Shown: positions 3,225 through 23,708 of the stretch, piece after piece | How positions within the stretch are numbered: the first letter of the stretch is position 1 | How the letters are laid out: the number at the start of each line of letters is the position of its first letter | Assembly: GCA_018817025.1 (NCBI GenBank) | Contig: JAHIUU010000007.1 | Span: 1-64,000 of the forward strand | Reading direction: 5' to 3' | Source: Candidatus Babelota bacterium | GTDB lineage: Bacteria; Babelota; Babeliae; Babelales; JAHIUU01 | Length of the DNA stretch: 64,000 nucleotides | Position numbers and translations under genes: made by a program | The notes under the pieces: model-generated | The model's database searches: none | The model's input: the letters and a program-made list of their open reading frames with translations, nothing else | Told to the model about the DNA's origin: nothing

Positions 3225-3356
3225 TGGCATGACTGGAGTCCGGGAACGGGCCGACTGCTAAGTTTGAAAGCGTGGCCGAGCCGAAAGGCGAGCCCTGCTG
3301 CCTATAAGAAAAAGATGATTTGGGAATGGCCTGCCGGCTGTAGCCTCGGCGAAAGC
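3225..3356. repeat. GC-rich palindromic spacer beside tRNA-Arg
   Basis: This stretch is much richer in G+C than its surroundings. It contains several short inverted repeats, such as GGCCGAGCC/GGCGAGCC-type pairs and a GCCGGC core. It abuts the CCA end of tRNA-Arg and holds no reading frame. It resembles the small mobile palindromes of intracellular bacteria, but only a genome-wide repeat search could confirm that. Confidence 0.35.
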
Positions 3357-3433
3357 TGGTGCGCCCGGTAGGACTCGAACCTACAACCTACGGATTCGAA
3401 GTCCGGCACTCTATCCAATTGAGCTACGGGCGC
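3357..3433 (-). tRNA. tRNA-Arg(TCG)
   Basis: On the minus strand the acceptor stem GCGCCCG pairs with CGGGCGC. The D arm reads GCTCAATTGGATAGAGT, the anticodon loop CTTCGAA gives anticodon TCG, the T arm holds GGTTCGAGTCC, and the 3' ACCA is encoded. It reads CGA and other CGN arginine codons. Its 3' end, read on the plus strand, begins TGGTGCGCC and is similar in part to the recombinase-end scars elsewhere in the window. Confidence 0.97.
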
Positions 3434-8483: not shown

Positions 8484-10400
8484 ATGAACAAGATCAATGT
8501 GGGAAAAGTTGTCAAAAAAGCAAAAAAAAACAACTTTGTAGGTCAAAGTCTGGGGCCAATATCTGATCTGGAGAAACATTTGCCAAGCGATTGGTGGAAG
8601 AAAATATTCAATTCTCTTTATTTGAAGACAGATGGAGATGTTGTAGAAAATAGTATGAACACCGTTAAAGAGGTGGATATTCTTCTTGAAAAGACTAACG
8701 TTAAGCCGTCTGATGTAATTCTAGATCTTTGTTGTGGGCAAGGGAGACATTCATTAGAACTCGCCAAAAGAGGTTTTTGCAATGTTTACGGGATTGATCG
8801 CTCTCGTTATTTAATTAGAATGGCTAGAAAAAGGGCAAAAGCGTTTGCTGATAATATTGTGATGCCAAAGTTCAGCGAGGGTGATGCAAGAAGAATTAAT
8901 CTAGAAGAGTGCTCTCAAGATTTGGTTATGCTAATGGGAAATTCGTTTGGGTATTTTGAAAAAAAGGAAGATGATAAAGCTCTTATCGGCCAGATAAAAA
9001 GGGTTTTGAAGTCCGAAGGAAAGCTTTTTTTGGATATTGTTGATGGCGAATGGATGAGAAGCAACTTTGAGCCAAGATCGTGGGAATGGATAGATCAAGA
9101 TCATCTCGTTTGTAGAGAAAGAAGCCTTGCTAAGAAAGATTCTAGAATTATTACCAGAGAAGTAATCGTAAATTCTTCGAGAGGAATAATAGCAGATCAA
9201 TTTTATGCGGAACGTTTGTATACCTATGCAGAAATTTTTTCATTGTTAGAAAGTGTTGGTTTTGAACAGATTTCAAATCAAGGTAATTTTCTCTCAGATT
9301 CAACTCGTAAGCAAGATCTCGGGATGATGGAAAACCGGTTGATTATTACAGCTTTTGCTCCAAAGAAAGCGAGTGTAGAAAAGGTTGTTGATGTTTTCAA
9401 GGTTGCGGTTGTTTTGGGTGACGAGAGTCTTCCTGATGAGGTTAAAAGGGATGGGAAATTTAATGACGAAGATCTGAATACTATATCCACATTTAAGGAT
9501 GCCCTAAAGAATATCGAAAAATTTGACTTTACTTGTGTCAGTAACCATAAGACTTTATTGAAGTCTTTAATGAATGACCCACCTTCTTTTGTTTTTAATT
9601 TGTGTGATGAAGGGTACTACAATGATGCTTTTAAAGAACTCCACATACCGGCATATTTAGATATGCTTGGAATTCCTTATACAGGGGCTGGTCCTGCGTG
9701 TTTGGCAATGTGCTATAACAAGTCACTTGTACGTGCACTTGCTTTTCAACTAGAAATTCCTGTTCCATTGGAAACGTATGTTGATTCAAGTGATCAGGTT
9801 GCGCATTTGCCATCCATTTTTCCTGCTCTAATTAAGCCAAATTTTGGTGATAGTTCTCTTGGTATTACTAAGGATGCTGTTGTTAACAATGCTGAGTCGT
9901 TAATTTCTTATTTGGAGGAAATGAGAAAAATTATTCCTGGTAGGCCTATGCTGATCCAAGAATATTTGAGTGGAGCTGAGTATAGTGTTGCTATTATTGG
10001 TAATCCTGGAAATTATACAGTTTTTCCTATTTTAGAAGTTGATTATTCTGGGTTGCCTTCCAATTTGGCTCCGATTCTATCCTATGAATCAAAGTGGTTG
10101 CCAGATTCTCCGTATTGGTCTGATATTAGCTATAAAAAAGCAAACATAAGCGAAAGCATCAGTCGACAGTTAATTGATCATTCGATTTTGCTTTTTGAGC
10201 GATTGGAATGTAGAGATTATGCCCGGTTTGATTTTAGAGAAAATAGTAAAAAAAAGATTTGCTTAATGGAGGTTAATCCAAATCCAGGGTGGTGTTGGGA
10301 TGGAAAAATGAACATCATGGCAGGATTTTATGGCTTGGATTATTCAGAGTTTTTAAAGCTTGTCTTAGAGGCTGCGAAAAAAAGAATTGGGATTCGATAG
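8484..10400 (+). CDS. SAM methyltransferase fused to a D-Ala-D-Ala-ligase-like ATP-grasp domain
   Basis: A 638-aa two-domain protein. Residues about 30-300 form a class I methyltransferase with SAM motif I VILDLCCGQGRHS (78-90) and the NSFGYF region seen in small-molecule methylases. Residues about 310-638 form an ATP-grasp ligase of the D-alanine-D-alanine ligase type, with a preATP-grasp domain (FNLCDEGYY), a central ATP-grasp region (PALIKPNFGDSSLGI) and the metal/ATP motif MEVNPNPGW near the C-terminus. Both halves keep key motifs, so both are probably active. The product could be a methylated dipeptide or a modified cell-wall or secondary-metabolite precursor; that is inference. A strong terminator follows. 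Confidence 0.85.
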   Translation: MNKINVGKVVKKAKKNNFVGQSLGPISDLEKHLPSDWWKKIFNSLYLKTDGDVVENSMNTVKEVDILLEKTNVKPSDVILDLCCGQGRHSLELAKRGFCNVYGIDRSRYLIRMARKRAKAFADNIVMPKFSEGDARRINLEECSQDLVMLMGNSFGYFEKKEDDKALIGQIKRVLKSEGKLFLDIVDGEWMRSNFEPRSWEWIDQDHLVCRERSLAKKDSRIITREVIVNSSRGIIADQFYAERLYTYAEIFSLLESVGFEQISNQGNFLSDSTRKQDLGMMENRLIITAFAPKKASVEKVVDVFKVAVVLGDESLPDEVKRDGKFNDEDLNTISTFKDALKNIEKFDFTCVSNHKTLLKSLMNDPPSFVFNLCDEGYYNDAFKELHIPAYLDMLGIPYTGAGPACLAMCYNKSLVRALAFQLEIPVPLETYVDSSDQVAHLPSIFPALIKPNFGDSSLGITKDAVVNNAESLISYLEEMRKIIPGRPMLIQEYLSGAEYSVAIIGNPGNYTVFPILEVDYSGLPSNLAPILSYESKWLPDSPYWSDISYKKANISESISRQLIDHSILLFERLECRDYARFDFRENSKKKICLMEVNPNPGWCWDGKMNIMAGFYGLDYSEFLKLVLEAAKKRIGIR

Positions 10401-11418: not shown

Positions 11419-11862
11419 ATGGGGACTAAACGGGCGCAAGATCCTTCTGTTTTATTGAGTTTTATAAATTTTTTAAGCAGATCAAATCATTTGCCATCTT
11501 GGTTGTTTGCTGGGTTGCGTTTTTACAAGACACATTCGCTTCCCAGTGCAGAAATAATAAAGCAGGATAAAAAACTGCCGGTTGTTGTTTTTCTGCCCGG
11601 TGACCCCGTTATGCCTCGGCAGTATTCATGGCTTTTGGAAGAGCTGGCTAGTCATGGTTTTGTGGTTGCGACAATTAACCAAACGGATTTGACAACAGAA
11701 ACGCATTTTCCTGATGAGCGAGTTGTGAAGTGGGTTGGTCCAAAAATGAAAAAAGAGAGAAGAAAGTTTACGGGCCAAAAGTTGGTGGACAGTCATATAG
11801 AATGGCTGTGGGAGAAAGTTGAGCATAACTGGGAAATGGTGTGCCTCGCCGGACGATCTTAG
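11419..11862 (+). pseudogene. Truncated alpha/beta hydrolase (PAF-acetylhydrolase-like), N-terminal half only
   Basis: 147-residue fragment. KLPVVVFLPGD, then EELASHGFVVATINQTD and FPDERVV align with the N-terminal half of the hydrolase domain of the 866-aa protein at 23.7-26.3 kb (FPVIIFSHGA, EELASHGYVVVGINHTY, FPDGRII). The nucleophile elbow GHSFGG and everything after it are missing. Sequence identity with the hydrolase stops at about residue 137, exactly where the recombinase-end scar begins, and the frame then ends in CLAGRS-stop. It therefore looks like a gene cut by insertion or recombination at the scar. It is probably inactive. Confidence 0.75.
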
Positions 11863-11929
11863 AACTTTTATCCCCTGCGGATTTCCCTTTGAAGTTGTGC
11901 GAGCAGTACTGATTTATGGGGAAATTTGA
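11837..11929 (+). repeat. Scar A: recombinase 3'-end remnant
   Basis: Read from TGG at 11837 it encodes WCASPDDLRTFIPCG, then FPFEVVRAVL and a stop at 11927-11929. It matches scars B and C closely and D and E more loosely. Its first 21 bases resemble the start of the tRNA-Arg(CCT) 3' end where the intact recombinase ends at 39.06 kb (TGGTGTGCCTxGCxGGAC). It truncates the hydrolase fragment on its left and lies eight bases from the 3' end of the convergent MutY-like gene on its right. Confidence 0.75.
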
Positions 11930-11937
11930 TGATAAAA

Positions 11938-12762
11938 TCAGTCGAAAGAGAAACTTTGTGACAAAATCTTTTCTTCGACAAGTTTGTTTATGATTTTTTC
12001 AATTTGGCTTGCTTTTATTTCTGTTCTTACCAGTTTGATTCTTTTTAATACTTGTTCTTTTGTAAGCGTTGTATCGCTCAGCAATAGCTTTATGATTTTT
12101 CCTCGAATTTGGCGGGTAGATCCTTCAAATTTTGATTGCTTTGTATAAGATTTGCTTTTGTTAATTGGATTAATGCCCTGAGACTTTAGATGGACTCCAT
12201 AGTCTGTAATGGCGTAGTACCAAATACGGGGATTTTTTTTATCAAGTGTCTGTTGTGCGAGGTATAAAAGTTTTTTGTCGGGGATGTTATCTTTATTTTG
12301 CAAAAAAAGATGTATTAAAACAGCTCGAATATTGGTTTCGACGAATACTGTCGGCTTATTGAATGCAAACGCGGCGATTGATCCAGCAGTGGCGGTTCCG
12401 ATACCAGGAAGCTTTCGCAAAAGGTTTACATCTTTTGGAATTTCTCCATCGTATGTTGAAATAATTTCTTTAGCGCTTTGGTGTAAGAATTTTGCCCTTC
12501 TATTGTATCCTAGACCTTGCCAGGCACGTAAAACGTCGAATAGCTCAGCCCTTGCAAGGGCATGAAAACTAGGGAATACATGTAAAAACGTATCGTATTT
12601 TTTTGCGACCCGAGACGTTTGTGTTTGTTGAAGCATGACTTCGGAGATAAAAATAGGGTATTGATCTGTTGTATTTCGCCAGGGGAAATCGCGCCCAAAC
12701 TTTTTGTAATGATCATATATGATTTTTTGAAAATCTCTAACTTGTTTTTCTGTGAGTTGCAT
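11938..12762 (-). CDS. MutY-like adenine DNA glycosylase (HhH-GPD) without an iron-sulfur cluster
   Basis: Base-excision repair glycosylase of the HhH-GPD superfamily. PWRNTTDQYPIFISEVMLQQTQ contains the MutY-type SEVMLQQTQ with the catalytic Glu. LRKLPGIGTATAGSI is the helix-hairpin-helix. The position of the usual catalytic Asp reads VETNIRAV, with Glu in place of Asp, and the C-terminal Cys-rich Fe-S loop is absent. The 8-oxoG-recognition domain of full MutY is also missing. The ATG at 12762 is preferred to the upstream one at 12840, which would overlap the divergent uvsE start at 12814. Similar short MutY-like proteins are common in candidate phyla. The substrate is inferred. Confidence 0.82.
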   Translation of the reverse strand: MQLTEKQVRDFQKIIYDHYKKFGRDFPWRNTTDQYPIFISEVMLQQTQTSRVAKKYDTFLHVFPSFHALARAELFDVLRAWQGLGYNRRAKFLHQSAKEIISTYDGEIPKDVNLLRKLPGIGTATAGSIAAFAFNKPTVFVETNIRAVLIHLFLQNKDNIPDKKLLYLAQQTLDKKNPRIWYYAITDYGVHLKSQGINPINKSKSYTKQSKFEGSTRQIRGKIIKLLLSDTTLTKEQVLKRIKLVRTEIKASQIEKIINKLVEEKILSQSFSFD

Positions 12763-12813
12763 TTGGGGAATATAACCCGATAGAATGGTATTTGCAAGTA
12801 TAAAGAGGTTTTT

Positions 12814-13722
12814 ATGAAAATAGGGTATCCGTGTATCCATACAGAAATTGGCTGCAAAGCAAGCTCCGGCTTTCGGCTTGCATCCTATTCAAAAGATCGT
12901 CTTATAGAAACTGTGCAACGAAATCTCGATTGTTTAGAAAAAATATTGTTGTTTAATCTAAAGCATAAGATTTTCTTTTTTCGTATCTCGTCAGATTTGG
13001 TCCCTTTTGCCTCTCATCCCATTTGTACATATGATTGGCAAGCCCACTTTTCTAAGCAATTAAAAAACATAGGTAATTTTATAAAAAAGCATGATATGAG
13101 AATATCAATGCACCCAGATCAATTTGTGCTTATTAATGCCAAAGACAAGCGTATTGTGAAAAATAGCATTCGAGAACTTGCCTATCATTGTCAGGTGCTT
13201 GATCTCATGATGTTAGACGAGACCGCAAAGATTCAGATTCATGTTGGTGGGCTTTATGGCGACAAAGTTGCTTCTGTTGATCGTTTTATTCGTGTGTACA
13301 AGGCGCTTCCTCTCGATATGAAAAAGCGCTTAGCCATTGAAAATGACGATTATAAGTACAGTGTCCAGGACTGTATAGACATACACAAAAAAATAAATGT
13401 TCCAGTTATCTTTGATTCCCTACATCACGATTGTTTGAATAATGGCGAAAGCTACAGAGAAGCGTTAAAGATATGTAGCAAGACCTGGACAAAAAAAGAT
13501 GGCATTCCAATAATTGATTATAGTACACAGGATAAAACAAAGCGTAAGGGGGCGCATACACTATCAATCGATATAAGGCACTTCAAAGCTTTTATAAAGG
13601 AAATCAAAGGCATTGATTGTGATATCATGCTTGAGATTAAAGACAAACAAAAAAGTGCATCTCGGGCGTTGGAAGTGTTGCGTGTTAAGGATAAAATACG
13701 TAGATTGTTAGTAGAAAGATGA
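12814..13722 (+). CDS. uvsE: UV damage endonuclease UvsE (UVDE)
   Basis: Mn2+-dependent nuclease that nicks DNA 5' to UV photoproducts. The 302-aa TIM-barrel protein has the family landmarks: MKIGYPC at the N-terminus, FFRISSDLVPFASHP, SMHPDQFVLINA, IHVGG, LAIENDDYKYS and VIFDSLHHDC, which supply metal-binding His/Glu/Asp residues. Its length fits UVDE. The start codon is preceded by AAGAGG. It is divergent from the MutY-like gene, with starts about 50 bases apart, forming a small DNA-repair pair. Its 3' end overlaps the convergent channel gene by 38 bases. Confidence 0.93.
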   Translation: MKIGYPCIHTEIGCKASSGFRLASYSKDRLIETVQRNLDCLEKILLFNLKHKIFFFRISSDLVPFASHPICTYDWQAHFSKQLKNIGNFIKKHDMRISMHPDQFVLINAKDKRIVKNSIRELAYHCQVLDLMMLDETAKIQIHVGGLYGDKVASVDRFIRVYKALPLDMKKRLAIENDDYKYSVQDCIDIHKKINVPVIFDSLHHDCLNNGESYREALKICSKTWTKKDGIPIIDYSTQDKTKRKGAHTLSIDIRHFKAFIKEIKGIDCDIMLEIKDKQKSASRALEVLRVKDKIRRLLVER

Positions 13723-14800
13723 TGAAAAGTGTAATCGGCCAAAACAACAATTTGGGAAGAAGATTTTCTTTGTAACGTAAAAAAGAGATTTTTCGTTTTG
13801 ATTTAAACCGATAAAATACGCTTAATGATGAGAGAACTACAAGTAAATAAGAGGCTAAATAAAAATATTCTAGATAAAAAATACCGGAAATGGGAAGCTT
13901 GTCTCTCAGGGATACATGGGAGAAGATTATACTGAGTATTAAGGCACTGTTGGCTGAAAATAATGTGACCATGTTGAGTCGATCTGCGACAAGTAGCAGT
14001 ATAAAAATCAAGAACAGAATTATTATCAGAGGTAAAATAATTGACAAGAGGGGTTGAACGATTCTTCTTTTAATAATGACATTGTAGCTGAAGAGAGGTT
14101 TGTTTTTTATCGTTTCTTCGTGTAGTCCATAAGTTACTTCAGAAAACTGTTTCCCGTAAGAAAAAAAGCTTTTTTGGAGATTCCAGCCTTTTAGTGATAT
14201 CCGGTTTGAAAGGCCTGGAAGAGAGCTTGGTGTTATAATTGAATATGCTCCAAAGTCTGGTGTTAAAACGGAGTTTCCCGTCCGATCTTTTGTTGTGAGC
14301 TGCAGGCTGATTTGTTGGTAATCAAAAGGATACTTACCATATTGCGTGACAACAGGGAGTACGCATTTAAAATTCATCTCTGCAATTTTTTTACCGTTTT
14401 GAATATAGATTTTTTTTACTTCAATATCAGAACTAACTGATTTTTCAATGGAAAATTTTGGAATCTCTTCATCTTTCGTTTCAGGTGGATATTTTTGCCA
14501 CAAGTAACCAGAGAAATGTACACTGTCGATGTCTAAGAATTCTATGTGATTTACTATGACTCCCGTGGGAATATAAACTGGTTGAGCGATATTGATTAGG
14601 CCTTTTTTAGACTTAAAGAACATTTGCATATCATGTTGACTTGTTATAACAGATTTATTTGGGTCGACTTGTAAGCCTTCATCAAAGCCGATACTACATA
14701 TCATCGATATCCCTGTTATTAGCAATAATGAACCCAGAGCTGAACAAAGCATCAGGGCATTTTTGCTTGAAGCATACCGGTATGCAAAACCCATAATCAT
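13685..14800 (-). CDS. Pentameric ligand-gated ion channel (pro-loop receptor) homologue
   Basis: 371-aa membrane protein. After a signal or anchor segment (about 14-38) comes a beta-rich extracellular region containing YPFDYQ (157-162), the FPFDxQ motif at the heart of the Cys/pro-loop of pentameric ligand-gated channels. Then come three closely spaced hydrophobic helices from about residue 245, with the M2-M3 linker carrying DKLPISG followed by YFYLASYL, as in GLIC/ELIC-type channels, and a fourth helix at the very C-terminus. No Cys-loop disulfide pair is seen, as usual in prokaryotes. Its start lies 33 bases downstream of a Cache sensor gene. Ligand and ion selectivity are unknown. The assignment rests on motif and topology, not on alignment. 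Confidence 0.7.
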   Translation of the reverse strand: MIMGFAYRYASSKNALMLCSALGSLLLITGISMICSIGFDEGLQVDPNKSVITSQHDMQMFFKSKKGLINIAQPVYIPTGVIVNHIEFLDIDSVHFSGYLWQKYPPETKDEEIPKFSIEKSVSSDIEVKKIYIQNGKKIAEMNFKCVLPVVTQYGKYPFDYQQISLQLTTKDRTGNSVLTPDFGAYSIITPSSLPGLSNRISLKGWNLQKSFFSYGKQFSEVTYGLHEETIKNKPLFSYNVIIKRRIVQPLLSIILPLIIILFLIFILLLVADRLNMVTLFSANSALILSIIFSHVSLRDKLPISGIFYLEYFYLASYLLVVLSSLSVFYRFKSKRKISFLRYKENLLPKLLFWPITLFIIFLLTIYVFYP

Positions 14801-14833
14801 AAAAAGCAGAAAAAATAAGATTGTAATAACTAC

Positions 14834-15800
14834 TCAAATTTTGTTTTGTTTAATTTTTTTGATGTGTTTTACAAAAACTTCTTCTTTATAGTAAATTGCA
14901 GCAAAATGCCACTCAGTAGGTGCTATTTGATATAAAAATGCCCAGCTATCTTTTTTGACTTCGTTACTAATGTAATCTGTATAATCAATAATGCCATCTT
15001 TACCAGTAAGCATGCGTTTTCCAAGAAGGACAAGGGATGGATTCTTAGCCTTCTTTTCTAGATCAGCAATTGTTTTTTTGTTCAGAAACATATTCATTCA
15101 TATAGTGAGATATAATTGTTCCTTTTTTAGATAGTAAGAAGCCATAACCCGTTTTTCCTAAATTGAGGTATGAGATTCGGTTTGTGATGGCGTTCAAATT
15201 GAAATTGACAAAAACTATGCCAAGAGGTTTTCCCTTAGGACCATTTCCTTTGTGAACCGCTATTGCATATTCCCCGATTACAGCTCTTTTCTTAGCAACA
15301 TAGTATGGGTCAGACCAAGCTTCTCCTTTGGATAGCGGAGTTGTATACCAATTGACATCAGGTTTGAATTTGCTTTTTGAAGGTTGAGTATAATCGTATG
15401 TTATTGGGGTGGAAAGAACTTTGTTATTTTCTATTTGATAGTATGGAGCGAATAATTTTGTTTTTTCGTCAATTATGGATGGCTCAAAGGCAGCACCTAC
15501 TCCAACCAAGTTTGGGTTTTGTTTTAAACTTTCTTGTAATAACTTTTCGATATCTCCCTTACTCATTTTTTCTGCACCCAACTTCTTTGCCAGGGAAACA
15601 GCAGTTTCTTTTATAGCTTTTAGAGTTTTTTCAATAGAAAGCAATTCTTCGGAGAGACTTTTTTTTATTTCTTCTTGGACCTTGTTTTCAATTTTGGCCT
15701 TGAATGATACATTTTTGTATGAGAAATATAATCCCAGGGCAAGCATGATAGCAGAAAACCCCCAAAAGATATGTTCCAGAGTTTTTTTCTTCAATCTCAT
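14834..15800 (-). pseudogene. Membrane-anchored Cache-domain sensor protein, frameshifted
   Basis: Two overlapping minus-strand frames together make one dCache_1-like sensor. The first (15800 to 15063) has an N-terminal transmembrane helix, a coiled stretch, and the Cache motifs VGVGAAFEP, APYYQ, WYTTPL, WSDPYY and GYGFLLSKKGTIISH. The second (from about 15080 to 14834) continues with TIADLEKK, LTGKDG, WAFLYQIAPTEWHFA. They join at a run of seven A residues on the minus strand near 15072-15078: removing one A restores a continuous frame. No signalling output domain follows, so the adjacent channel gene is the natural partner. It could be a true pseudogene, a sequencing indel, or a gene rescued by slippage. 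Confidence 0.75.
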
Positions 15801-16028
15801 ATCAAGCCTTTCCTAGTACATAGTTTCTAATATTTCTGTTTGAGAAATGTTTTTGTGCTCTTCTAGTTAATTAGCATAGATGTTGCGTGAATAACAAGAT
15901 ATTGCTGACAAGCGTATGCTAGCACTACAGAAGCTTTTTAAAGATGGTAGAGGCATCAAATCAAGATTTTGGGGGATATGTTTTTTGAAAATAGTAGCAA
16001 TAGTAAATCATAATGGTTGATACAGAGA
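15801..16028. other. Intergenic upstream of the Cache sensor
   Basis: No supported gene. This presumably contains the promoter of the minus-strand Cache-channel operon on its left side. It leads directly into scar B. Confidence 0.4.
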
Positions 16029-16147
16029 ATGTTTTGTTAACATGCCCCATGTCTATGGAGTGGTGTACCAAACTGGACGATCTTAGAACTTTTATTCCCC
16101 TAGGATTTCCTTTCGAAGATGTACGTACGATGCTTAGTTATGTGTGA
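16029..16147 (+). repeat. Scar B: left direct repeat flanking the toxin-antitoxin module
   Basis: Nearly identical to scar C over its whole length, starting at ATGTTTTGTTAACATG. From TGG at 16061 it encodes WCTKLDDLRTFIPLG, then FPFEDVRTMLSYV and stop. The part before TGG corresponds in position to the recombinase C-terminus but is not cleanly in frame, so it is decayed. It ends six bases before the hepT stop codon. Confidence 0.8.
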
Positions 16148-16153
16148 TTGTTA

Positions 16154-16609
16154 TTATTTAATTAGATTTGCTAATGAGTTTAGATAACACACGGTTTCTT
16201 GTCGCTTTATCTTATCAAAAACGTTTCTCAATCCAGTGATAGCTTCAAGAATATATTTTTTTTCGGAAGATTGTTTTAAAAGATTTAATACGCTTTTTTC
16301 AAGTTCAGGAATTTCTGTGATAGCAGTGTCAAAAATTATTTCTGGATTTATTCCAAAGTACCTGTGAACAACTATATTTCGAAAATCAACGACATCTTGC
16401 CATTCAATTCCTAATTGATGCCATGAACCAGGAGTGTTTTTAAGCTTCTTTGCAGATTCTCCTATTTCTTGCATTTCTCTTGTGACGAGAGCAAATGTTT
16501 TTTCGTCTGTTACAAAATCTACATATGGTAAGTCTTTAATATTTCTTCTAATTTTATCAATGGATATTAGAATATTTATAAATAATAATTCTGGCCGAGC
16601 TTTAGGCAT
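16154..16609 (-). CDS. hepT: HepT-like HEPN-domain ribonuclease toxin
   Basis: Toxin of the MntA-HepT type VII family (HEPN, formerly DUF86). The 151-aa helical protein contains RNIVVHRY, matching the catalytic Rx4HxY motif of HEPN RNases. It starts with ATG at 16609, overlapping the stop of the nucleotidyltransferase gene in ATGCCTAA, which is better than the in-frame ATG at 16627. The tight overlap with mntA is typical. Known HepT toxins are silenced by AMPylation of the tyrosine in this motif, and the tyrosine is present here. Confidence 0.9.
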   Translation of the reverse strand: MPKARPELLFINILISIDKIRRNIKDLPYVDFVTDEKTFALVTREMQEIGESAKKLKNTPGSWHQLGIEWQDVVDFRNIVVHRYFGINPEIIFDTAITEIPELEKSVLNLLKQSSEKKYILEAITGLRNVFDKIKRQETVCYLNSLANLIK

Positions 16610-16904
16610 ATACCCATTCCTTTTCAATGAGGTTTATTATGAAAGGATTTACAGAGTCCTTGTAAATTACATCAATTTTTTTATCAAATAGCTTTTCCAG
16701 GAATCGAAGGATATTTATATAGTTTCTGAAAGTTTTCTTTTCGCACTCAATGAGTATATCAATGTCACTTTTTTCTGTTGCCTCATTTCTTGCATATGAA
16801 CCAAATAAAATTATATTGTCTACGCTGAAATTCTTTTTAAGAAAGTCTTTATTATTTTTTAAGGTTTCAACAATTTGTTCTTTAGTTAGTTTTTCTTTTT
16901 CCAT
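16602..16904 (-). CDS. mntA: MntA-like minimal nucleotidyltransferase antitoxin
   Basis: 100-aa minimal nucleotidyltransferase. The signature GSYARNEATEKSDIDILIE carries GSx10DxD, the pol-beta-type catalytic motif. In characterised MntA-HepT pairs this enzyme AMPylates the toxin and neutralises it. It overlaps both neighbours: 23 bases with the AbrB-like gene upstream and eight with hepT downstream, so the three are translated as one operon. Length and order fit the family. Confidence 0.9.
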   Translation of the reverse strand: MEKEKLTKEQIVETLKNNKDFLKKNFSVDNIILFGSYARNEATEKSDIDILIECEKKTFRNYINILRFLEKLFDKKIDVIYKDSVNPFIINLIEKEWVYA

Positions 16905-17073
16905 TGTTTACCTTCTTTTTATTTGGGTCATCTTTTATTGGTGTTAGGATAAGACAATTTCCATCTGTTGTAATTTTAAATACTGTATTTTCATCTGCCC
17001 CAAGTAATGCCAGAATTGGCCTTTCAATAACTAGCGCCAGACTATTTCCATGTCGAACTAATTTTTTTATCAA
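16882..17073 (-). CDS. AbrB/MazE-like swapped-hairpin DNA-binding protein
   Basis: 63-aa protein. KKLVRHGNSLALVIERPILALLG followed by FKITTDGNCLILTPI is the SpoVT-AbrB/MazE fold, with the GNS(L)ALxI motif. It is the first gene of a three-gene minus-strand operon with mntA and hepT. AbrB-like proteins act as antitoxins or autorepressors. Here it probably represses the operon promoter just upstream (17074-17208), since mntA supplies the neutralising activity. That division of labour is inference. Confidence 0.85.
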   Translation of the reverse strand: MIKKLVRHGNSLALVIERPILALLGADENTVFKITTDGNCLILTPIKDDPNKKKVNNGKRKTN

Positions 17074-17208
17074 AGATTTGCTCCTTCTTTTCTTGGTGCG
17101 TTACTACGATGGTATACCGTCTAGGGATAAAAGTCAAGAATATGATTTTTGTGACAAGTTTTTTATAAAAGGTGGGGTAAAGAACGTGTTAAAGGTTTAA
17201 TTGAGAAA

Positions 17209-17327
17209 ATGTTTGTTAACATGTCTCATGCCTATGGAAATGGTGTACCAAACTGGACGATCTTAGAACTTTTATCCCCTACGGATTTCCGTTCGAAGAT
17301 GTCCGTGCGGTGCTCAGTTATTCGTGA
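17209..17327 (+). repeat. Scar C: right direct repeat flanking the toxin-antitoxin module
   Basis: Direct repeat of scar B, in the same orientation and offset by 1180 bases. From TGG at 17241 it encodes WCTKLDDLRTFIPYG, then FPFEDVRAVLSYS and stop. Together with scar B it brackets the AbrB-MntA-HepT operon. The copper oxidase gene ends 56 bases to the right. The region 17074-17208 between the operon and this repeat holds no gene, only the likely operon promoter. Confidence 0.8.
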
Positions 17328-17383
17328 TGTGGTAATGTCATTGTCAACGGTTATTTGTGCTATAAATGCGAAATTGTTGCGTC

Positions 17384-19438
17384 TCAAAACCTAAGTCTAA
17401 TTCCAACGCCCTCTTCAAAATAAGAATCATAAGCAGCGGTGAGTAGAATATTCTTATTAAATTCATATGAAAGTTGTAAACGATACTCTTTATCGGTATT
17501 TGCTAACCATTCAAATTTTATACGCTTAGTTAATTGTAGATTGGATTTTAACCCAAAGCGGACATGTCCTTTTGTGTCAATGCGTAGGTCTGATTCGATG
17601 AGCATTGGAAGCATATAATTTATGCCGAATACTCCAGTATTTTCGGGCCCTTCATCTTCACGCTCTAAATTGGCCCCTATATAGGCGCTGAAAAAGCGTG
17701 TAAAGCTTCTTTTATATGCGATATCAACATCATATTCTTTGCTATAGTTATAATCATACTCAACTTCAAAAGCGTTGCGGGTATTTGAAGCACGAAACAT
17801 TCCCATTGTCATGTTATATAAAGCTGATACGTCTAGTAAGAAATACCATGTGTCGTGCGACAGTTTATTAAATGTTTTAGGGGTTGCGGTTGTTGTTTTT
17901 TCATAAGAGACTGAACGGGCCATGCCGGCTTTCATATGATAAAGATTATGACAGTGGAAAAACCAGTCTTTTTCTTCGTTTGCTTCAAATTCTATTTCAA
18001 TCTTGCTCATTGCTGGAACATTAACCGTGTGTTTGAGAGGGCTTCTTTCTCCTTGCCCGTTAAGTACGCGAAAAAAGTGGCCATGTAGATGTATTGGATG
18101 ATGCATCATCGTTTTGTTATTGAGTAAGAATCTAACGTTTTCGCCTTTTCTTATCATGATTTTACTAGACTCAAGCAGTGTTTTATTATTGAACGACCAG
18201 ACATAACGCTCCATATTTCCAGTTAAGTTTATGGTTAATTTTCTTTCTGGCCTTTCAGGAGATAAACTTGTGTTTTTTGTTGCCCGAAGGGCTTTATAGT
18301 CTTTCATATACTCTATAGGCTGTTTCTGCATCGTCATTGCTTCATGATGCATCAAGTGTTTTTTGCCGTTACCGTTATGCATAATGTTAGAGCTACCATG
18401 CATACTGTTATGCATGCTGTGATGTAGTAAAAACAAGTTTGGTCTAGGAATGTATGGGGCAAGCACCTTTTTGCCCGAGCCTATAAAAGTAGAGCTATGG
18501 CCCACGCCATCTTCAGAGGTTGCACGAAACTCATAAGCTTTATCATCTGAAACTTTTACAATAACATCGTATGTTTCTGCTATTGCGATGAGGAGCCGTT
18601 TGCTTTTTTGGGGTTCAACGTCAACACCATCAGCAGAGACTATTTTCATAGGTCCACCTGCAAATTCAATCTTGAAATAACTTGAAGCCGCTGCGTTAAT
18701 AAGGCGTATTCGTATAGTTTCGCCTGGTTTTGCATCTAGGTGTGAGATTTGTTTGCCGTTGGTCAGAAACGCGTCATACCCTATGTCAGACAAGTCCATA
18801 GGACCCATACGAGTCCAGGCTCCGCGTAATCGATTTTTTATAGCTACTCGACCGTTTTGTAGTACTTTGTCCCAAGATTGAACAGAATTTTTCTTCAGGG
18901 CATAATAGTCTCCATCTTTTTTTAGATTTGCCAGAACATTCTCGGGTTTTTCATTTGTCCAGTCAGACAGCACTACAACATAGTCTCTGTCTGTTTTGAT
19001 GGTCTCACCTCCAATTGGATGAAAAATAAGAGAGCCGTACAAGCCTTGTTGTTCTTGTAAGTTTGTGTGAGAGTGGTACCAGTATGTACCTGAGTGCTTC
19101 ACTTTAAATTGATAGGTAAATGATGATTTTGACTTTATTGGTGGTGTTGTCAAATAGGGAACTCCGTCTTGGTTGTTTGGAAGGAGAACACCATGCCAAT
19201 GTATAGATGTTTCTTTATCCATTTTGTTATGGAAAGTAACCATGAGGGTGTCTCCAACTGTTGCCTCGATCGTTGGTGCTGGAATTTGTTTGTTTATGGC
19301 GAGAGCGGTTACGGGTTTTCCGGTAAAATTTACCTCTATCTCATCTATATCGAAGTGATATTCAACTGTTTTTGTATGAGCTATAAATGTTGCTGGTATT
19401 GCGATTGATAAACAAATAACTTTTTTGAATTTATTCAC
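17384..19438 (-). CDS. CopA-type multicopper oxidase with a C-terminal outer-membrane-barrel-like domain
   Basis: Periplasmic or surface copper oxidase, 684 aa with a signal peptide (about 1-22). Copper ligands are all present: IHWHG (80-82), YWYHSHT (122-124), HPIHLHGH and the T1/T3 site HCHNLYHMKAGM. A Met/His-rich loop (LLHHSMHNSMHG and following) resembles copper-binding inserts of CopA/PcoA. After about residue 530 the sequence changes to alternating aromatic/polar strands ending in RLRF, like CopB/PcoB-type barrels. CopA and CopB are normally separate genes, so this looks like a fusion. Likely role: Cu(I) oxidation and copper tolerance at the outer membrane. Confidence 0.88.
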   Translation of the reverse strand: MNKFKKVICLSIAIPATFIAHTKTVEYHFDIDEIEVNFTGKPVTALAINKQIPAPTIEATVGDTLMVTFHNKMDKETSIHWHGVLLPNNQDGVPYLTTPPIKSKSSFTYQFKVKHSGTYWYHSHTNLQEQQGLYGSLIFHPIGGETIKTDRDYVVVLSDWTNEKPENVLANLKKDGDYYALKKNSVQSWDKVLQNGRVAIKNRLRGAWTRMGPMDLSDIGYDAFLTNGKQISHLDAKPGETIRIRLINAAASSYFKIEFAGGPMKIVSADGVDVEPQKSKRLLIAIAETYDVIVKVSDDKAYEFRATSEDGVGHSSTFIGSGKKVLAPYIPRPNLFLLHHSMHNSMHGSSNIMHNGNGKKHLMHHEAMTMQKQPIEYMKDYKALRATKNTSLSPERPERKLTINLTGNMERYVWSFNNKTLLESSKIMIRKGENVRFLLNNKTMMHHPIHLHGHFFRVLNGQGERSPLKHTVNVPAMSKIEIEFEANEEKDWFFHCHNLYHMKAGMARSVSYEKTTTATPKTFNKLSHDTWYFLLDVSALYNMTMGMFRASNTRNAFEVEYDYNYSKEYDVDIAYKRSFTRFFSAYIGANLEREDEGPENTGVFGINYMLPMLIESDLRIDTKGHVRFGLKSNLQLTKRIKFEWLANTDKEYRLQLSYEFNKNILLTAAYDSYFEEGVGIRLRF

Positions 19439-19541
19439 GGACTATTCCAATTCGTTGTGAAATATAAGCATTTTATTACCATTTCAGTTTTAAACTAAAT
19501 TGGAGTTAATTATCAATAGATAGCGAGAGATTGCAGCAGAG

Positions 19542-19844
19542 ATGTCATCCAATGTAGATGCAGATGAATCCTGTCTTATTACGGCTAAAACCGTTCTGGA
19601 TTTGGCTAAAAGGGCTAAGGAGATTTTCTTGAGTTCGAGGATGGAGGAAAAACAGCAACTTTTGAATTTCGTATTCTCGAACTTACAGCTCGATCACGAT
19701 AAGCTGCTTGTAGAGCTTCGAGAGCCCTTCAATATGATAGTAAATTTAAGTGATCGACCTGAGTGGTGTGCCCATTTGGACGATTATCGAACTTTTTTGA
19801 CAGGTGGGGTTATTGTAGATGACATGCGGGCGGTGCTGGTTTGA
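19542..19844 (+). pseudogene. Scar D: C-terminal fragment of a large serine recombinase
   Basis: About 100 residues that align with the last 60-70 residues of the intact recombinase at 37.6-39.1 kb: AKTVLDLAKRAKEIF, then KQQLLNFVFSNL, then ELREPFNMIV and EWCA correspond to ADLILELAKNASQLF, HKILKLMVSNC, ELRLPFSLIL and KWCA. No catalytic or zinc domain is present. After WCA it continues with the scar signature HLDDYRTFL and a VDDMRAVLV ending. This copy shows most clearly what the other scars are. Confidence 0.8.
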
Positions 19845-20091
19845 AGTTATAATGTTGCTTCGGTTACTGTGCTAAGTTTTGGGCTAAAAGTTTTTTTGTT
19901 GCCTTTTTATTTGTGTTGAGTTCTATTTTTGTTGTTCAAGCTGAGAGGGGGCGTAGTTGACGCGTTTGATTTGCATGGGTGCAGGAACGTGGGTAGGCCA
20001 AATCTATTTCGCAACTGTTAAGTTGTTTTTGAGATTGGATTGAGTCATCTAGAGAGGATTTATTCAGAGCTGCATATGGGAGTGTTTATGG

Positions 20092-21168
20092 TTAGGAATG
20101 TTTAGGTAGAAGTTTCTTTTCAGGCGGTGTTTCGCGTAAGATTTTGATTGCATCCTTGAATTCTTGGGATTCAAAATTTTTGATGGCTTTATTAAACATG
20201 GCTCTTCCAAATTTTAATAGGGACTCTGGTTTATTCAAGGTAACGTTTTTTAACCACCATTCTTTTAAAAAAGCCTTATACGAAGGAATTTTTAATGTTT
20301 TGTAGAAAGGCATCTTTGGGTCAATCCTTCTTAAAAGGTTCGATCCAAAGTTTATTAAAGCTACTTGTTTCATTAGATACAATCGAGCTTTTTCTTTCAA
20401 GGTTGGTTTTCGTTCGAGGTAAGTTCTCAGTAAGATTTCTTCATGGTTGGAATCAAAACAATAAAAAAGACTTACTGTTGCAATGTCAAAATATGGATCT
20501 GATTGAGCCGCTGATTCATAATCAATGGCCTTGAGGCCATCTCCAAAAAAAATAAGATTATCTGGATTCAAACCAAGGTGACATGGGGCAGAGACAATGT
20601 ATGGTGTAACTGTTTTCTGTATAATGGCAAGGTTGTTTTCGATGCTTTCCAGGGGTATTATGGCTCCATGGGGAGTAATTTTATGTAGTTTTCTTCGGAC
20701 TCGATTAATAGCATCAGTGGTCTTTTGTAAGCTTTGGCTTGAGTGCATCTTTTTCAAAAGGTGCCCCAACATGCTGCATAATTCTTTAGACTGTAGTTGC
20801 TGATAGGTAATAGGCTGGGAAGAAATATATTCCATGATGATGACGGCGTCTTTTTCATCCATAAAATAGATGTGGGGTCCGTACCCATTTTCTGATGCGA
20901 TTCTGAATCCTCTCATTTCCTCTAGACATCTTTCTGGTGTTTCGTGTGCCATAAAACGAATAACATATTTTTTGGCACCATCAGTGACAGTAAAAAGTTT
21001 TGCGCCAGACATGCCACCTTTAAGCGCTTGTGCAGTAACAGTCCCAGGAAGCGATAATTTGTCTTTCACTACTGACGCTGCGTATTTTTCGTCGATGCGA
21101 CGTGTTTCACAAGAACAGAGAGCCAAAAGCATTGCTGTGATAGTGCAGAGTTTTATCGTGTTATTCAT
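20092..21168 (-). CDS. Exported lipoprotein with choline/aminoglycoside-kinase fold, catalytic Asp missing
   Basis: 358 aa. The N-terminus is a lipoprotein signal (LLALCSC, lipid-modified Cys near 20). The rest is an APH/choline-kinase fold: a Gly-rich GGMSGAKLF loop, KKYVIRFM with the ATP-binding Lys, IIMEYIS as hinge, the Brenner-like HLGLNPDNL, and AIDYESAAQSDPYFDIA matching the IDWE/D metal motif. In active members the loop reads HxDxxxxN; here the Asp is Gly, so catalysis is doubtful. Envelope location and missing base argue for a pseudokinase or a kinase with altered chemistry, since ATP is not expected in the periplasm. The 247 bases before it (19845-20091) hold no gene. Confidence 0.75.
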   Translation of the reverse strand: MNNTIKLCTITAMLLALCSCETRRIDEKYAASVVKDKLSLPGTVTAQALKGGMSGAKLFTVTDGAKKYVIRFMAHETPERCLEEMRGFRIASENGYGPHIYFMDEKDAVIIMEYISSQPITYQQLQSKELCSMLGHLLKKMHSSQSLQKTTDAINRVRRKLHKITPHGAIIPLESIENNLAIIQKTVTPYIVSAPCHLGLNPDNLIFFGDGLKAIDYESAAQSDPYFDIATVSLFYCFDSNHEEILLRTYLERKPTLKEKARLYLMKQVALINFGSNLLRRIDPKMPFYKTLKIPSYKAFLKEWWLKNVTLNKPESLLKFGRAMFNKAIKNFESQEFKDAIKILRETPPEKKLLPKHS

Positions 21169-21457
21169 AGGATTCCTCTTTTTGATGGTCTAATTGATGG
21201 TCTAAAACAAAACTACCAAAAAAATAGGTTTGAAATCAATGATGTTTGGGACCAAATGAGTGGTCCTTGTTGTTGTTATGGTGTATTATATTGTTAATTG
21301 TTGTAGATCATGGCGTGTTTTTTAAGAATTGGTTTTTTGATGTCTATAAATATGAGATTTGCTCCAGACTTGGTTTTAAGGAACTTTTCCGAGCATTTAT
21401 CTGGAGAAAAACACAAAGAAGAGTGTGTTCCGCAAGGTATGAAAGAAGGAGCATGCA

Positions 21458-22324
21458 ATGTTTGAATGGGTAAGTACTATGCTGAAAGCGTTCATTTTTT
21501 CTTTATTGGCTTCATTGGGGTTTGTTTCGAATACATCAGTGCAAAAGATTTCTTCAATTCACGAAATTAAAAGCCAACTAGAATCTGTTTCACAAGAGAC
21601 CTGGGTTATTTTTGATGTTGACGATACGCTTACTTACAAAGCTTCTAATATTCTTTTTCAGCCGTGGTTTCGTAAAACTGAAGTGGGTAAAAAATTTCGG
21701 GCTCAACTTATAAAGCATAGCAAATCTCAAGAAGATCCTCTAGTTTACAAAGGACATGTTTTAACCAAAAGAATGATTAATAATGTTGATCAACCAATTG
21801 AACCAGGTGTAGTCAGTCTTATTAAAACATTACAGGGGCGGGGACTTACTGTTATTGCCCTTACGCATTGTGTAACTGGTTTTTTAGGTGGCACTATTAT
21901 TCAAAAATTGCGGTATGAAAAGTTGCTTGAGGTTGGCATCGATTTTAGTTCAAGTTTTAAGCAACAAGAAATCATCTTTGATGATTTAACGTCTTCTCGA
22001 GGTCGTCATCCGATGTTTTACAAAGGCATTTTAATGACCGATATGTTTACCAAAGGCCAGGTGCTGGGCAAATTCTTAGATGTCATGAAGCTGAAACCTA
22101 AAAAAGTAATTTTTTTCGATGATAACGAATCCTATGTAAAATCTGTTCAGGAGGAAATGGAAAAGCGAGGGATTATTTTTAAAGGCTTTGTTTATCGAGC
22201 AATTGATACACTGCCTCCGAAAGACTTTGATCAAAAGATTCTTGATTATCAATTAAAATATCTTAAAGAACATGACGAAATTATTTCTGATAAAGAGGCT
22301 CGAGAGGCTGTTTACTCTGAATAA
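21458..22324 (+). CDS. Exported HAD-superfamily protein (DUF2608-like)
   Basis: 288 aa. WVIFDVDDTLTYKA is HAD motif I (nucleophile Asp and acid/base Asp), VIALTHC is motif II with Thr, and KKVIFFDDNESYVKSV is motif IV. The layout is that of DUF2608 proteins, found mostly in intracellular bacteria. The N-terminus is hydrophobic (AFIFSLLASLGFV) and probably directs export. The ATG at 21458 is supported by GAAGGAG seven bases upstream. Substrate unknown; phosphatase activity is likely because motifs I, II and IV are intact. About 290 gene-free bases precede it. Confidence 0.82.
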   Translation: MFEWVSTMLKAFIFSLLASLGFVSNTSVQKISSIHEIKSQLESVSQETWVIFDVDDTLTYKASNILFQPWFRKTEVGKKFRAQLIKHSKSQEDPLVYKGHVLTKRMINNVDQPIEPGVVSLIKTLQGRGLTVIALTHCVTGFLGGTIIQKLRYEKLLEVGIDFSSSFKQQEIIFDDLTSSRGRHPMFYKGILMTDMFTKGQVLGKFLDVMKLKPKKVIFFDDNESYVKSVQEEMEKRGIIFKGFVYRAIDTLPPKDFDQKILDYQLKYLKEHDEIISDKEAREAVYSE

Positions 22325-22340
22325 TTTTAATTTGGGTAAG

Positions 22341-22487
22341 GGGAGAAAGTGGCGCGTCCATTTGGACGATTTGCGAACTTTTTTGGGTGGTGGAGTTTAT
22401 CCTGATTGTTGGCATATTCCGGGTGGTGAAATAGATAAAGGTGAGCAAGCAAAAGATTCAGTAATTCGAGAGGTAAAAGAAAGGTAA
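22341..22487 (+). pseudogene. Scar E joined to a truncated Nudix hydrolase
   Basis: The frame reads RKWRVHLDDLRTFLGG, the scar signature, and then runs straight into CWHIPGGEIDKGEQAKDS and VIREVKER, a Nudix-box beginning that stops before the catalytic EExG. It thus fuses a recombinase-end scar to the 5' part of a broken Nudix gene, and it is followed at once by an intact Nudix gene at 22493. No start codon belongs to it. It is a relic of recombination at the scar. Confidence 0.7.
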
Positions 22488-22937: not shown

Positions 22938-23708
22938 TTAAGATTTAAATTTTTTAAAATACTCTTCTTTGCTGGTGGAAATATTTATCTTGTCTTTGTC
23001 AATCAAGCCATAGATTGCCTTTTCATTTTTCTCAACGTAAGCCCAAGCCCGATCGCCGTAACTATAATGCCACCACTCATAACCGTAATTGACCAGACCA
23101 ACTTTTGATGCGGCACTTAGGAGCAGAATTCTATTTTTGCGTTGCTTTTCGGTAATGTTCTCCGTTAGCGTTTGAGCTTGAAGATTTGGACCAATAGCAG
23201 TGTCATGCCTACCTAAGTCCAATAAGCTCTTGGTTCCATCATCATTAAAGATAAAGAGCGTAAAATCAATTGCAGCACCTGTGCAATGCACTGGAACATT
23301 GTCAATGTAGGGGGATACAAATATGCTGGCCTGCATATAAGCTTTTTCAAGATCACCATGATCAAACTGCCTTACCAGCTCTCTAAATTTTTTATCAAAA
23401 TATTCTTTTTGTTTCCACAATGGACGGTAGCCTTGGGCAAAGGCTATCCCAATATTTTTGGGAAGACGTTCAAGCAGCAACAGCAATCTTTCATAAAGTC
23501 CTATTCGAACTTTTCCATTATCTGGATGTCCAGCATCATATGTTTTATCGAATTCTGCAAATGGAATAATTCGCTCATTATTTACTTCTTTTAAATCAAC
23601 GAGGTCTTCGCCACATTCGTCGATATCTATGCTTTTTATCTCTGGACTAGCAATGGGTAAGCGCAAAATTTTAAACGAATTTTCTTGGATATTGAGTTTT
23701 TTTATCAT
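22938..23708 (-). CDS. VanX-like D-Ala-D-Ala dipeptidase, second copy, no signal peptide
   Basis: 256 aa, M15D family. HCTGAAIDFTLF supplies a zinc His and Asp, and EWWHYSYGDRAWAY the catalytic Glu and third His. IGIAFAQGYRPLWKQ matches the family's GYRP motif. Unlike the copy at 6.2-6.9 kb it has no signal peptide and longer loops, so it probably works in the cytoplasm, perhaps recycling D-Ala-D-Ala. Its start overlaps the end of the 866-aa fusion gene by four bases (ATGA-type), implying co-translation. Confidence 0.85.
   Translation of the reverse strand: MIKKLNIQENSFKILRLPIASPEIKSIDIDECGEDLVDLKEVNNERIIPFAEFDKTYDAGHPDNGKVRIGLYERLLLLLERLPKNIGIAFAQGYRPLWKQKEYFDKKFRELVRQFDHGDLEKAYMQASIFVSPYIDNVPVHCTGAAIDFTLFIFNDDGTKSLLDLGRHDTAIGPNLQAQTLTENITEKQRKNRILLLSAASKVGLVNYGYEWWHYSYGDRAWAYVEKNEKAIYGLIDKDKINISTSKEEYFKKFKS

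Follow-up and report, generated by a model that had tools for sequence, protein, structure and literature searches.

The first 64,000 nucleotides of contig JAHIUU010000007.1 of Candidatus Babelota bacterium (assembly GCA_018817025.1; hereafter the window) raise the question of how a series of unrelated genes came to be separated by five short sequences of the same kind, all in the same orientation. A reading made from the sequence alone (hereafter the sequence-only reading) took these sequences for scars, each the end of an integrase left behind as small islands accreted at one attachment site, in effect a gene-cassette array. Our analysis supports cassette-like accretion at one site, which is likely to be the 3' end of a tRNA gene, and we find the same arrangement in other genomes. 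The scars themselves, however, appear to be the opposite end of each unit, i.e., the left (attP') end instead of the integrase end. Taking both parts together, we consider it probable that mobile units were integrated here in tandem by tRNA-targeting large serine recombinases (LSRs) at the 3' end of tRNA-Arg(CCT), forming an array, and that the five scars are left-end (attP') half-sites of these units, joined to tRNA-type cores.

A shared DNA motif in the five scars

The scars are the following.
11837..11929, plus strand: scar A, predicted attP' half-site TGGTGTGCCTCGCCGGACGATCTTAGAACTTT, with a tail that reads WCASPDDLRTFIPCGFPFEVVRAVLIYGEI and a stop
16061..16147, plus strand: scar B, predicted attP' half-site, tail WCTKLDDLRTFIPLGFPFEDVRTMLSYV and a stop
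17241..17327, plus strand: scar C, predicted attP' half-site, tail WCTKLDDLRTFIPYGFPFEDVRAVLSYS and a stop
19764..19844, plus strand: scar D, predicted attP' half-site, tail WCAHLDDYRTFLTGGVIVDDMRAVLV and a stop, in frame with a preceding LSR remnant
22350..22394, plus strand: scar E, predicted attP' half-site, core TGGCGCGTCC, tail lost after GGGV

Their positions, first given by the sequence-only reading, hold: pattern searches of the window match these five places only. The shared LDD(L/Y)RTF signature is also real in all five, but it is not a protein feature. It corresponds to a DNA motif, TGG followed by 18 bases and YNNMGAAC, which translates as LDDxRTF. The general pattern TGG-N18-YNNMGAAC occurs in the 64 kb exactly at the five scars (1.5 expected; 2 of 100 shuffles reach five), and a 20-base core pattern likewise matches only these (0.17 expected; no shuffle reaches five). 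With at most 3 mismatches allowed, a 35-base pattern picks out scars A to D alone (0 expected). Scars B, C, and A are also recovered by a profile built exclusively from sites of other genomes (E-values of 0.002-0.02). The genome from which the window comes has one more copy of this type of DNA, at C4:29051 on the minus strand, 3.5 kb from tRNA-Arg(TCT). A search for the LDDxRTF type elsewhere in the phylum returned nothing except one weak match in genome G010 (G-numbers denote genomes, and L-numbers loci or contigs, of the comparison sets).

If LDDxRTF marked a conserved protein domain, or made up a minor gene family of its own, its location at the breaks would be incidental. The sequence-only reading had named an ordinary domain as the outcome that would overturn it, and the codon conservation of the sequence that follows RTF in a single frame (see below) is what one would expect of a protein. 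Yet a tRNA-type core precedes the motif in every case, at a constant DNA spacing; the motif shares the reading frame of any LSR gene that is present and does not occur as a gene by itself. Between tail types, the DNA half-site is all that is shared. The fixed spacing led us to reject the protein domain, which we regard as very improbable.

LSR genes end within tRNA genes

The far end of the region holds two overlapping genes.
37608..39074, plus strand: intact LSR of clade I; the last element has its right end at the 3' end of this gene
39063..39139, minus strand: tRNA-Arg(CCT), whose CCA end (TGGTGTGCC on the plus strand) is the proposed attB core

The domains of the LSR run in the order Resolvase, Recombinase, and zinc ribbon (PF00239, PF07508, and PF13408, all above cut-off). 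R9, S11, Q25, D80, R81, and R84, assigned as catalytic or active-site residues by position from known LSRs, are invariant in an alignment of eight LSR rows. The protein terminates in SGKWCA, where the final codons of its gene are complementary to the CCA end of tRNA-Arg(CCT), an overlap that the sequence-only reading had missed.

This overlap is widespread. Among 38 long LSR reading frames taken from the order, with L059 left outside both classes, 34 end in antisense tRNA, and three (L045 1217, L046 7669, and L053 4462) run on into a scar-like tail instead of tRNA. The targets are tRNA-Arg (CCT, TCT, and TCG), Glu, Asp, Asn, Gln, and Met. In a set of GTDB contigs from many phyla (L078-L156, sharing some genomes with the set of the order), an overlap with a tRNA 3' end is present in 58 of the 71 LSRs that could be analysed, and common serine-recombinase C-termini (WLPGTDSNQRPSG and similar) are in fact antisense T-arm sequence. 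The LSR tree requires 15 changes of tRNA target, and thus repeated switching, even if the target label is still clustered. Published work considers serine-integrase insertion at tRNA genes rare (PMC3218068), whereas a broad LSR family follows it here as a rule.

A 5-bp offset distinguishes scars from tRNA ends

The antisense T-loop GAAY begins 20 bases after TGG in 158 of 165 distinct tRNAs, and GAAC begins at offset 25 in scars and tails. Rutherford et al. (2013) found the zinc-domain motif of a serine integrase to lie 5 bp nearer the centre in attB than in attP (PMC3783163). The tRNA end is therefore what one expects of attB and the scar what one expects of attP', and by the same shift LDDxRTF would be the zinc-domain half-site read as protein. 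A variable-gap search of 72 genomes gave the predicted gap in 13 of the 19 TCGAAC cases among the matches listed (P about 1e-11 for these matches, which include related, non-independent sites). The core bases also track the tRNA type: TGGCGG goes with Asp, TGGCTGG with Gln, TGGCTCC with Asn, and TGGTGT with Arg. Scars are identical to the tRNA for 6-10 bases and have scar-specific sequence beyond, which suggests a crossover within TGGNNN; the junctions would be products of recombination between the predicted attB and attP sites. The tRNA 3' end, a repeat of which is expected at the other end of an island, is matched over 6-10 bases by scars A to D and over only 3 by scar E. On a viral contig (L287 4459-4492), a free-form LSR carries a predicted attP' half-site at offset 25, reading WGTRWDELRTFLQQHSVTIQAIHKALCA and a stop.

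The resemblance of scars and tRNA in TGGTGTGCC and GGAC...GAAC could also point to degenerate tRNA 3' ends that islands with tyrosine integrases had duplicated. But the match ends after 6-10 bases, the remainder is another conserved sequence in which GAAC has moved by exactly 5 bp, this remainder is common to units at different tRNAs, and the recombinase fused to such tails is of the serine type. Given the 5-bp shift and the divergence past these bases, we rejected a tRNA origin, to which we give little more than a negligible chance.

A model for the growth of the array

Under the array model, the attachment core would be TGGNNN, the complement of the tRNA CCA end and the adjoining bases. On the attB side, the tRNA T-arm would provide the zinc-domain motif, with GAAC 20 bases from TGG; on the attP side, the motif would lie 5 bp further out and spell LDDxRTF in the LSR frame. 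Each integration would yield a left product, made of the host sequence or previous arm, TGG, and the attP' half, and a right product, made of the element's right arm, TGG, and the tRNA. A subsequent unit would use the same core, and attP' scars, all facing the same way, would accumulate with unrelated cargo separating them. Units that are autonomous would end in an LSR gene, its 3' end serving as right arm; other units would have a short arm without LSR and be moved in trans or be deletion derivatives. The order of events in the window would follow from this scheme, and tRNA-Arg(CCT) is the presumed site for every scar.

Units of the window and their cargo

The units delimited by the scars contain the following features.
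11938..15800: cargo of unit A-B, with an HhH-GPD glycosylase (minus), UvdE (plus), a 371-aa protein (minus), and a dCache-type sensor (minus)
16025..16060, plus strand: right arm of unit A-B, GAGAATGTTTTGTTAACATGCCCCATGTCTATGGAG
16154..17073, minus strand: cargo of unit B-C, with a HepT-like protein, an MNT nucleotidyltransferase, and a 63-aa open reading frame (ORF)
17205..17240, plus strand: right arm of unit B-C, a near-copy of the arm of unit A-B
17384..19438, minus strand: cargo of unit C-D, a multicopper oxidase
19521..19763, plus strand: LSR C-terminus remnant with one internal TAG, the right arm of unit C-D
20092..22324: cargo of unit D-E, with an APH-like kinase (minus) and a DUF2608 HAD-like protein (plus)

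These family names come from profile matches only. The DNA repair, toxin-antitoxin, copper oxidase, and kinase plus HAD cargoes proposed from the sequence were recovered with Pfam as HhH-GPD (MutY-like) and UvdE, HepT/MNT, multicopper oxidase, and APH-like plus DUF2608 proteins; the channel (13685-14800) was left unconfirmed. A gene of the DUF2608-like HAD type, judged by sequence resemblance, also occurs in the scar array of genome G024 (L219 8548-9420).

Unit B-C, with its HepT/MNT pair, measures 1.18 kb and has no recombinase. Junctions B and C are alike over about 120 bp, which comprise the 36-bp right arm and the attP' side, and a search for this arm across the window's genome found no copy beyond these two junctions. 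The remnant directly before scar D matches the intact LSR (phmmer, 3e-9), as the sequence-only reading had noted, but its closest relative is in another subfamily, that of L045 in G059. The gene downstream of scars A to D is on the minus strand, as previously noted for most scars, with its 3' end 93-328 bp away; the gene following scar E is on the plus strand.

Several observations weigh against the array model as we propose it. The intact LSR belongs to clade I, and the scars and the remnant at D have the tail type of the clade that holds L045 1217. A pattern search with up to 3 mismatches for the intact LSR's own left end gave no match. No LSR remnant was found directly before scars A, B, C, and E, contrary to the claim that each island leaves its integrase end behind; only D keeps an LSR C-terminus. 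Scars D and E are at noise level (E-values of about 1-2.5) in the profile trained on other genomes, and the core of scar E departs from tRNA-Arg(CCT) at base 4. The left arm of scar A sits within a hydrolase fragment. In other genomes, some scars stand far from any tRNA. Two sets of other genomes, each set from a single genus (G043/G061; G028/G036/G065), were searched for an empty site, and the sites read were occupied; neither an empty site nor a circle was observed, in data that cannot show circular forms.

Given the difference in clade between the intact LSR on one side and the scars and remnant on the other, more than one LSR seems to have used the site; as the maker of the scars, the intact LSR is not supported by its clade, its tail type, or its left-end pattern. 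We assigned scars D and E because of the shared motif, and D additionally because of the LSR remnant. The setting of scar A may reflect a secondary target, cargo that an earlier event had severed, or the last trace of an LSR.

The fragment at scar A (11419-11862, plus strand) is part of a PAF-acetylhydrolase, cut at the scar, and the bases that precede the latter (ACTGGGAAATGG) are similar to LSR genes of clade I at their 3' ends. Elsewhere in the window, one fusion ORF (23705-26305, minus) joins a PAF-acetylhydrolase domain to two GNAT acetyltransferase domains, and another (8484-10400, plus) joins a methyltransferase domain to an ATP-grasp domain of the D-Ala-D-Ala-ligase type. At 3325-3433, a hairpin arm (GGCGAAAGCTGG) like those of att junctions flanks the 3' end of tRNA-Arg(TCG), which suggests that a second unit once ended there.

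Arrays and recombinase-less units in other genomes

The strict pattern gave 38 sites in 27 of the 101 genomes of the phylum, versus 7 for a reversed control. In G024, five scars lie within 7.4 kb, with tRNA-Gln 3 kb further and long genes between them on the tRNA strand. G043 has three scars followed by an LSR at tRNA-Asp, G094 and G022 have two scars on one contig each, and G059 has three intact LSRs in tandem ahead of tRNA-Asn. Some units have the same arm at both ends: 61 bp in G028, before the scar and before tRNA-Asp of a 6.2-kb unit, and 34 bp in G041. The unit at tRNA-Arg(CCT) in G052 is 943 bp long and carries a single YaiI/YqxD gene. In 32 of 43 cases, the first gene after the scar runs opposite to it, on the same strand as the tRNA. 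Integron-like traits, i.e., recombinase-less units, common ends, and orientation bias, are thus found in the window, G024, G052, and G028.

The foot of a hairpin arm, GCGAAGnnTGG, occurs 28 times in 958 kb of partly overlapping loci, against 2 in a Markov control, and 19 of the 28 directly precede attP' or tRNA. The hairpin (GCCAnnCGAAGC..GCGAAGnnTGG) stands directly before TGG in L225, L236-L239, L243, L246, and others. This concentration at att junctions led us to reject a general intergenic repeat; candidate roles are tRNA trailer, terminator, or recombinase site, and some arms do have a hairpin like an intrinsic terminator beside the tRNA, which would bear on any transcription of the cargo by read-through from the tRNA promoter. 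An intergenic palindrome-like repeat of about 50 bp in G043 (L222 12804-12853), with more than 30 copies, is unrelated to the att hairpin.

These data bear on another account of the region, in which all units were once autonomous LSR elements in tandem islands whose deletions left the attP' ends, with no cassettes moved in trans. The part of the LSR kept at scar D, the intact tandem LSRs of G059, and tails still codon-conserved, as if inherited from LSR-bearing elements, agree with such decay, which we take seriously while judging it less likely than not. Random deletion predicts LSR stubs of many lengths; instead, scars A, B, C, and E and the five units of G024 have none or a common short arm. 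The 36-bp arm common to B and C, the concentration of GCGAAGnnTGG arms at att junctions (28 versus 2 expected), and the presence of scars in G071, G049, and G041 despite no detected LSR also speak against it. Judging by their sequences, the LSR-less units look non-autonomous and cassette-like, and may have been moved in trans.

The tail and the integrase C-terminus

Downstream of RTF, conservation follows the codons of the LSR frame. Across 45 sites, stops make up 10 of 630 codons in this frame, versus 52 of 585 and 35 of 585 in the others. Paired scars diverge chiefly at the third codon position: differences at positions 1, 2, and 3 are 3, 2, and 9 between scars A and B, 0, 2, and 7 between A and C, 3, 1, and 5 between B and C, and 1, 3, and 9 between scar D and the C4 copy. 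Selection thus seems to act on the tailed LSR, as a product of the free or tandem form. We found tailed LSRs in L045, L046, L053, L111, and L287; the tail is absent in tRNA-joined LSRs. Tail types appear to pair with LSR clades, with one or two direct cases per clade: DYFxNFxxEDxxLF with clade I; the type shared by L045 and scar D with the clade of L045; and RTF[NR]WxxIxxxL with the clade of L046 and L053. Joining to the tRNA would replace the tail and so swap the C-terminus of the integrase. We propose that the tail may influence protein stability or directionality, and that integration, in altering the C-terminus of the integrase itself, may work as a switch.

Viral contigs from the broader family offer a parallel. 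Free LSR forms (L269-L276, L280, L284, L285, L297, L299, L340, and L352-L365) have A or V as their last residue in 21 of 29 cases (LAA, LVA, IAA, KAA), versus 9 of 84 tRNA-joined LSRs, where at least three of the nine look free and were misplaced by a loose text filter (P = 8e-10, too optimistic a value given that many free rows are related phages). These ends resemble ssrA degrons, and integration would strip the degron from the integrase itself. Among Dependentiae tails we found no degron-like ends, and we claim no degron for the window.

Relation to known systems

The array resembles the SCC elements of staphylococci, in which LSRs (CcrA/B/C) target a conserved gene at its 3' end for insertion. 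In composite SCC arrays, several elements are stacked at one site and leave repeated att sites behind. The best NCBIfam match of the window's LSR is CcrB, at 100 bits against a cut-off of 900, which it does not reach. SCC elements use rlmH as their site, whereas the site in the window is tRNA-Arg and many units lack a recombinase.

Like integrons, the array has small units of one to a few genes with a recombination site at a fixed end, a fixed orientation bias, and growth from one anchor site. Integrons differ in their tyrosine recombinase, IntI, while the recombinase fused to these sites is of the serine type (no search for IntI was made); in their attC hairpins, as opposed to the double-strand sites of attP/attB type here; in their anchor, attI instead of a tRNA end; and in their capture in trans, which this array may or may not share.

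Serine recombinases are known at tRNA genes in phiRSM1 (tRNA-Ser), Mycobacterium AICEs (tRNA-Leu), and the Paracoccus phage Pami6 (tRNA-Met) (PMC3218068; PMC6536676). These are described as rare, single elements, whereas here a broad LSR family has gene ends that are tRNA ends, with arrays of LSR-less units. In the integration-dependent immunity of mycobacteriophages, attP lies in a coding gene and joining to the tRNA removes an ssrA-like C-terminal tail (PMC9262239). There a repressor is truncated by a tyrosine integrase, whereas here the serine integrase itself would be truncated, and degron-like ends were seen only in the viral relatives and not in Dependentiae. In a literature search for an integron-like serine-recombinase system, none of the listed titles and abstracts matched.

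The recurrence of the 5-bp shift in natural sequences means that attB and attP may be predicted for many uncharacterised integrases, with use in genome-engineering tools. We also advance, tentatively and with considerable doubt, that these arrays are the serine-recombinase counterpart of integrons: LSR-less, attP'-bounded units would be captured in trans at tRNA ends, in a biased orientation, by integrases whose tail is swapped off. If so, the free and integrated integrase would differ by design, with a degron-like end in the viral relatives. Reduced, host-dependent bacteria would then have a concrete route by which to gather cargo in cassette-like arrays.

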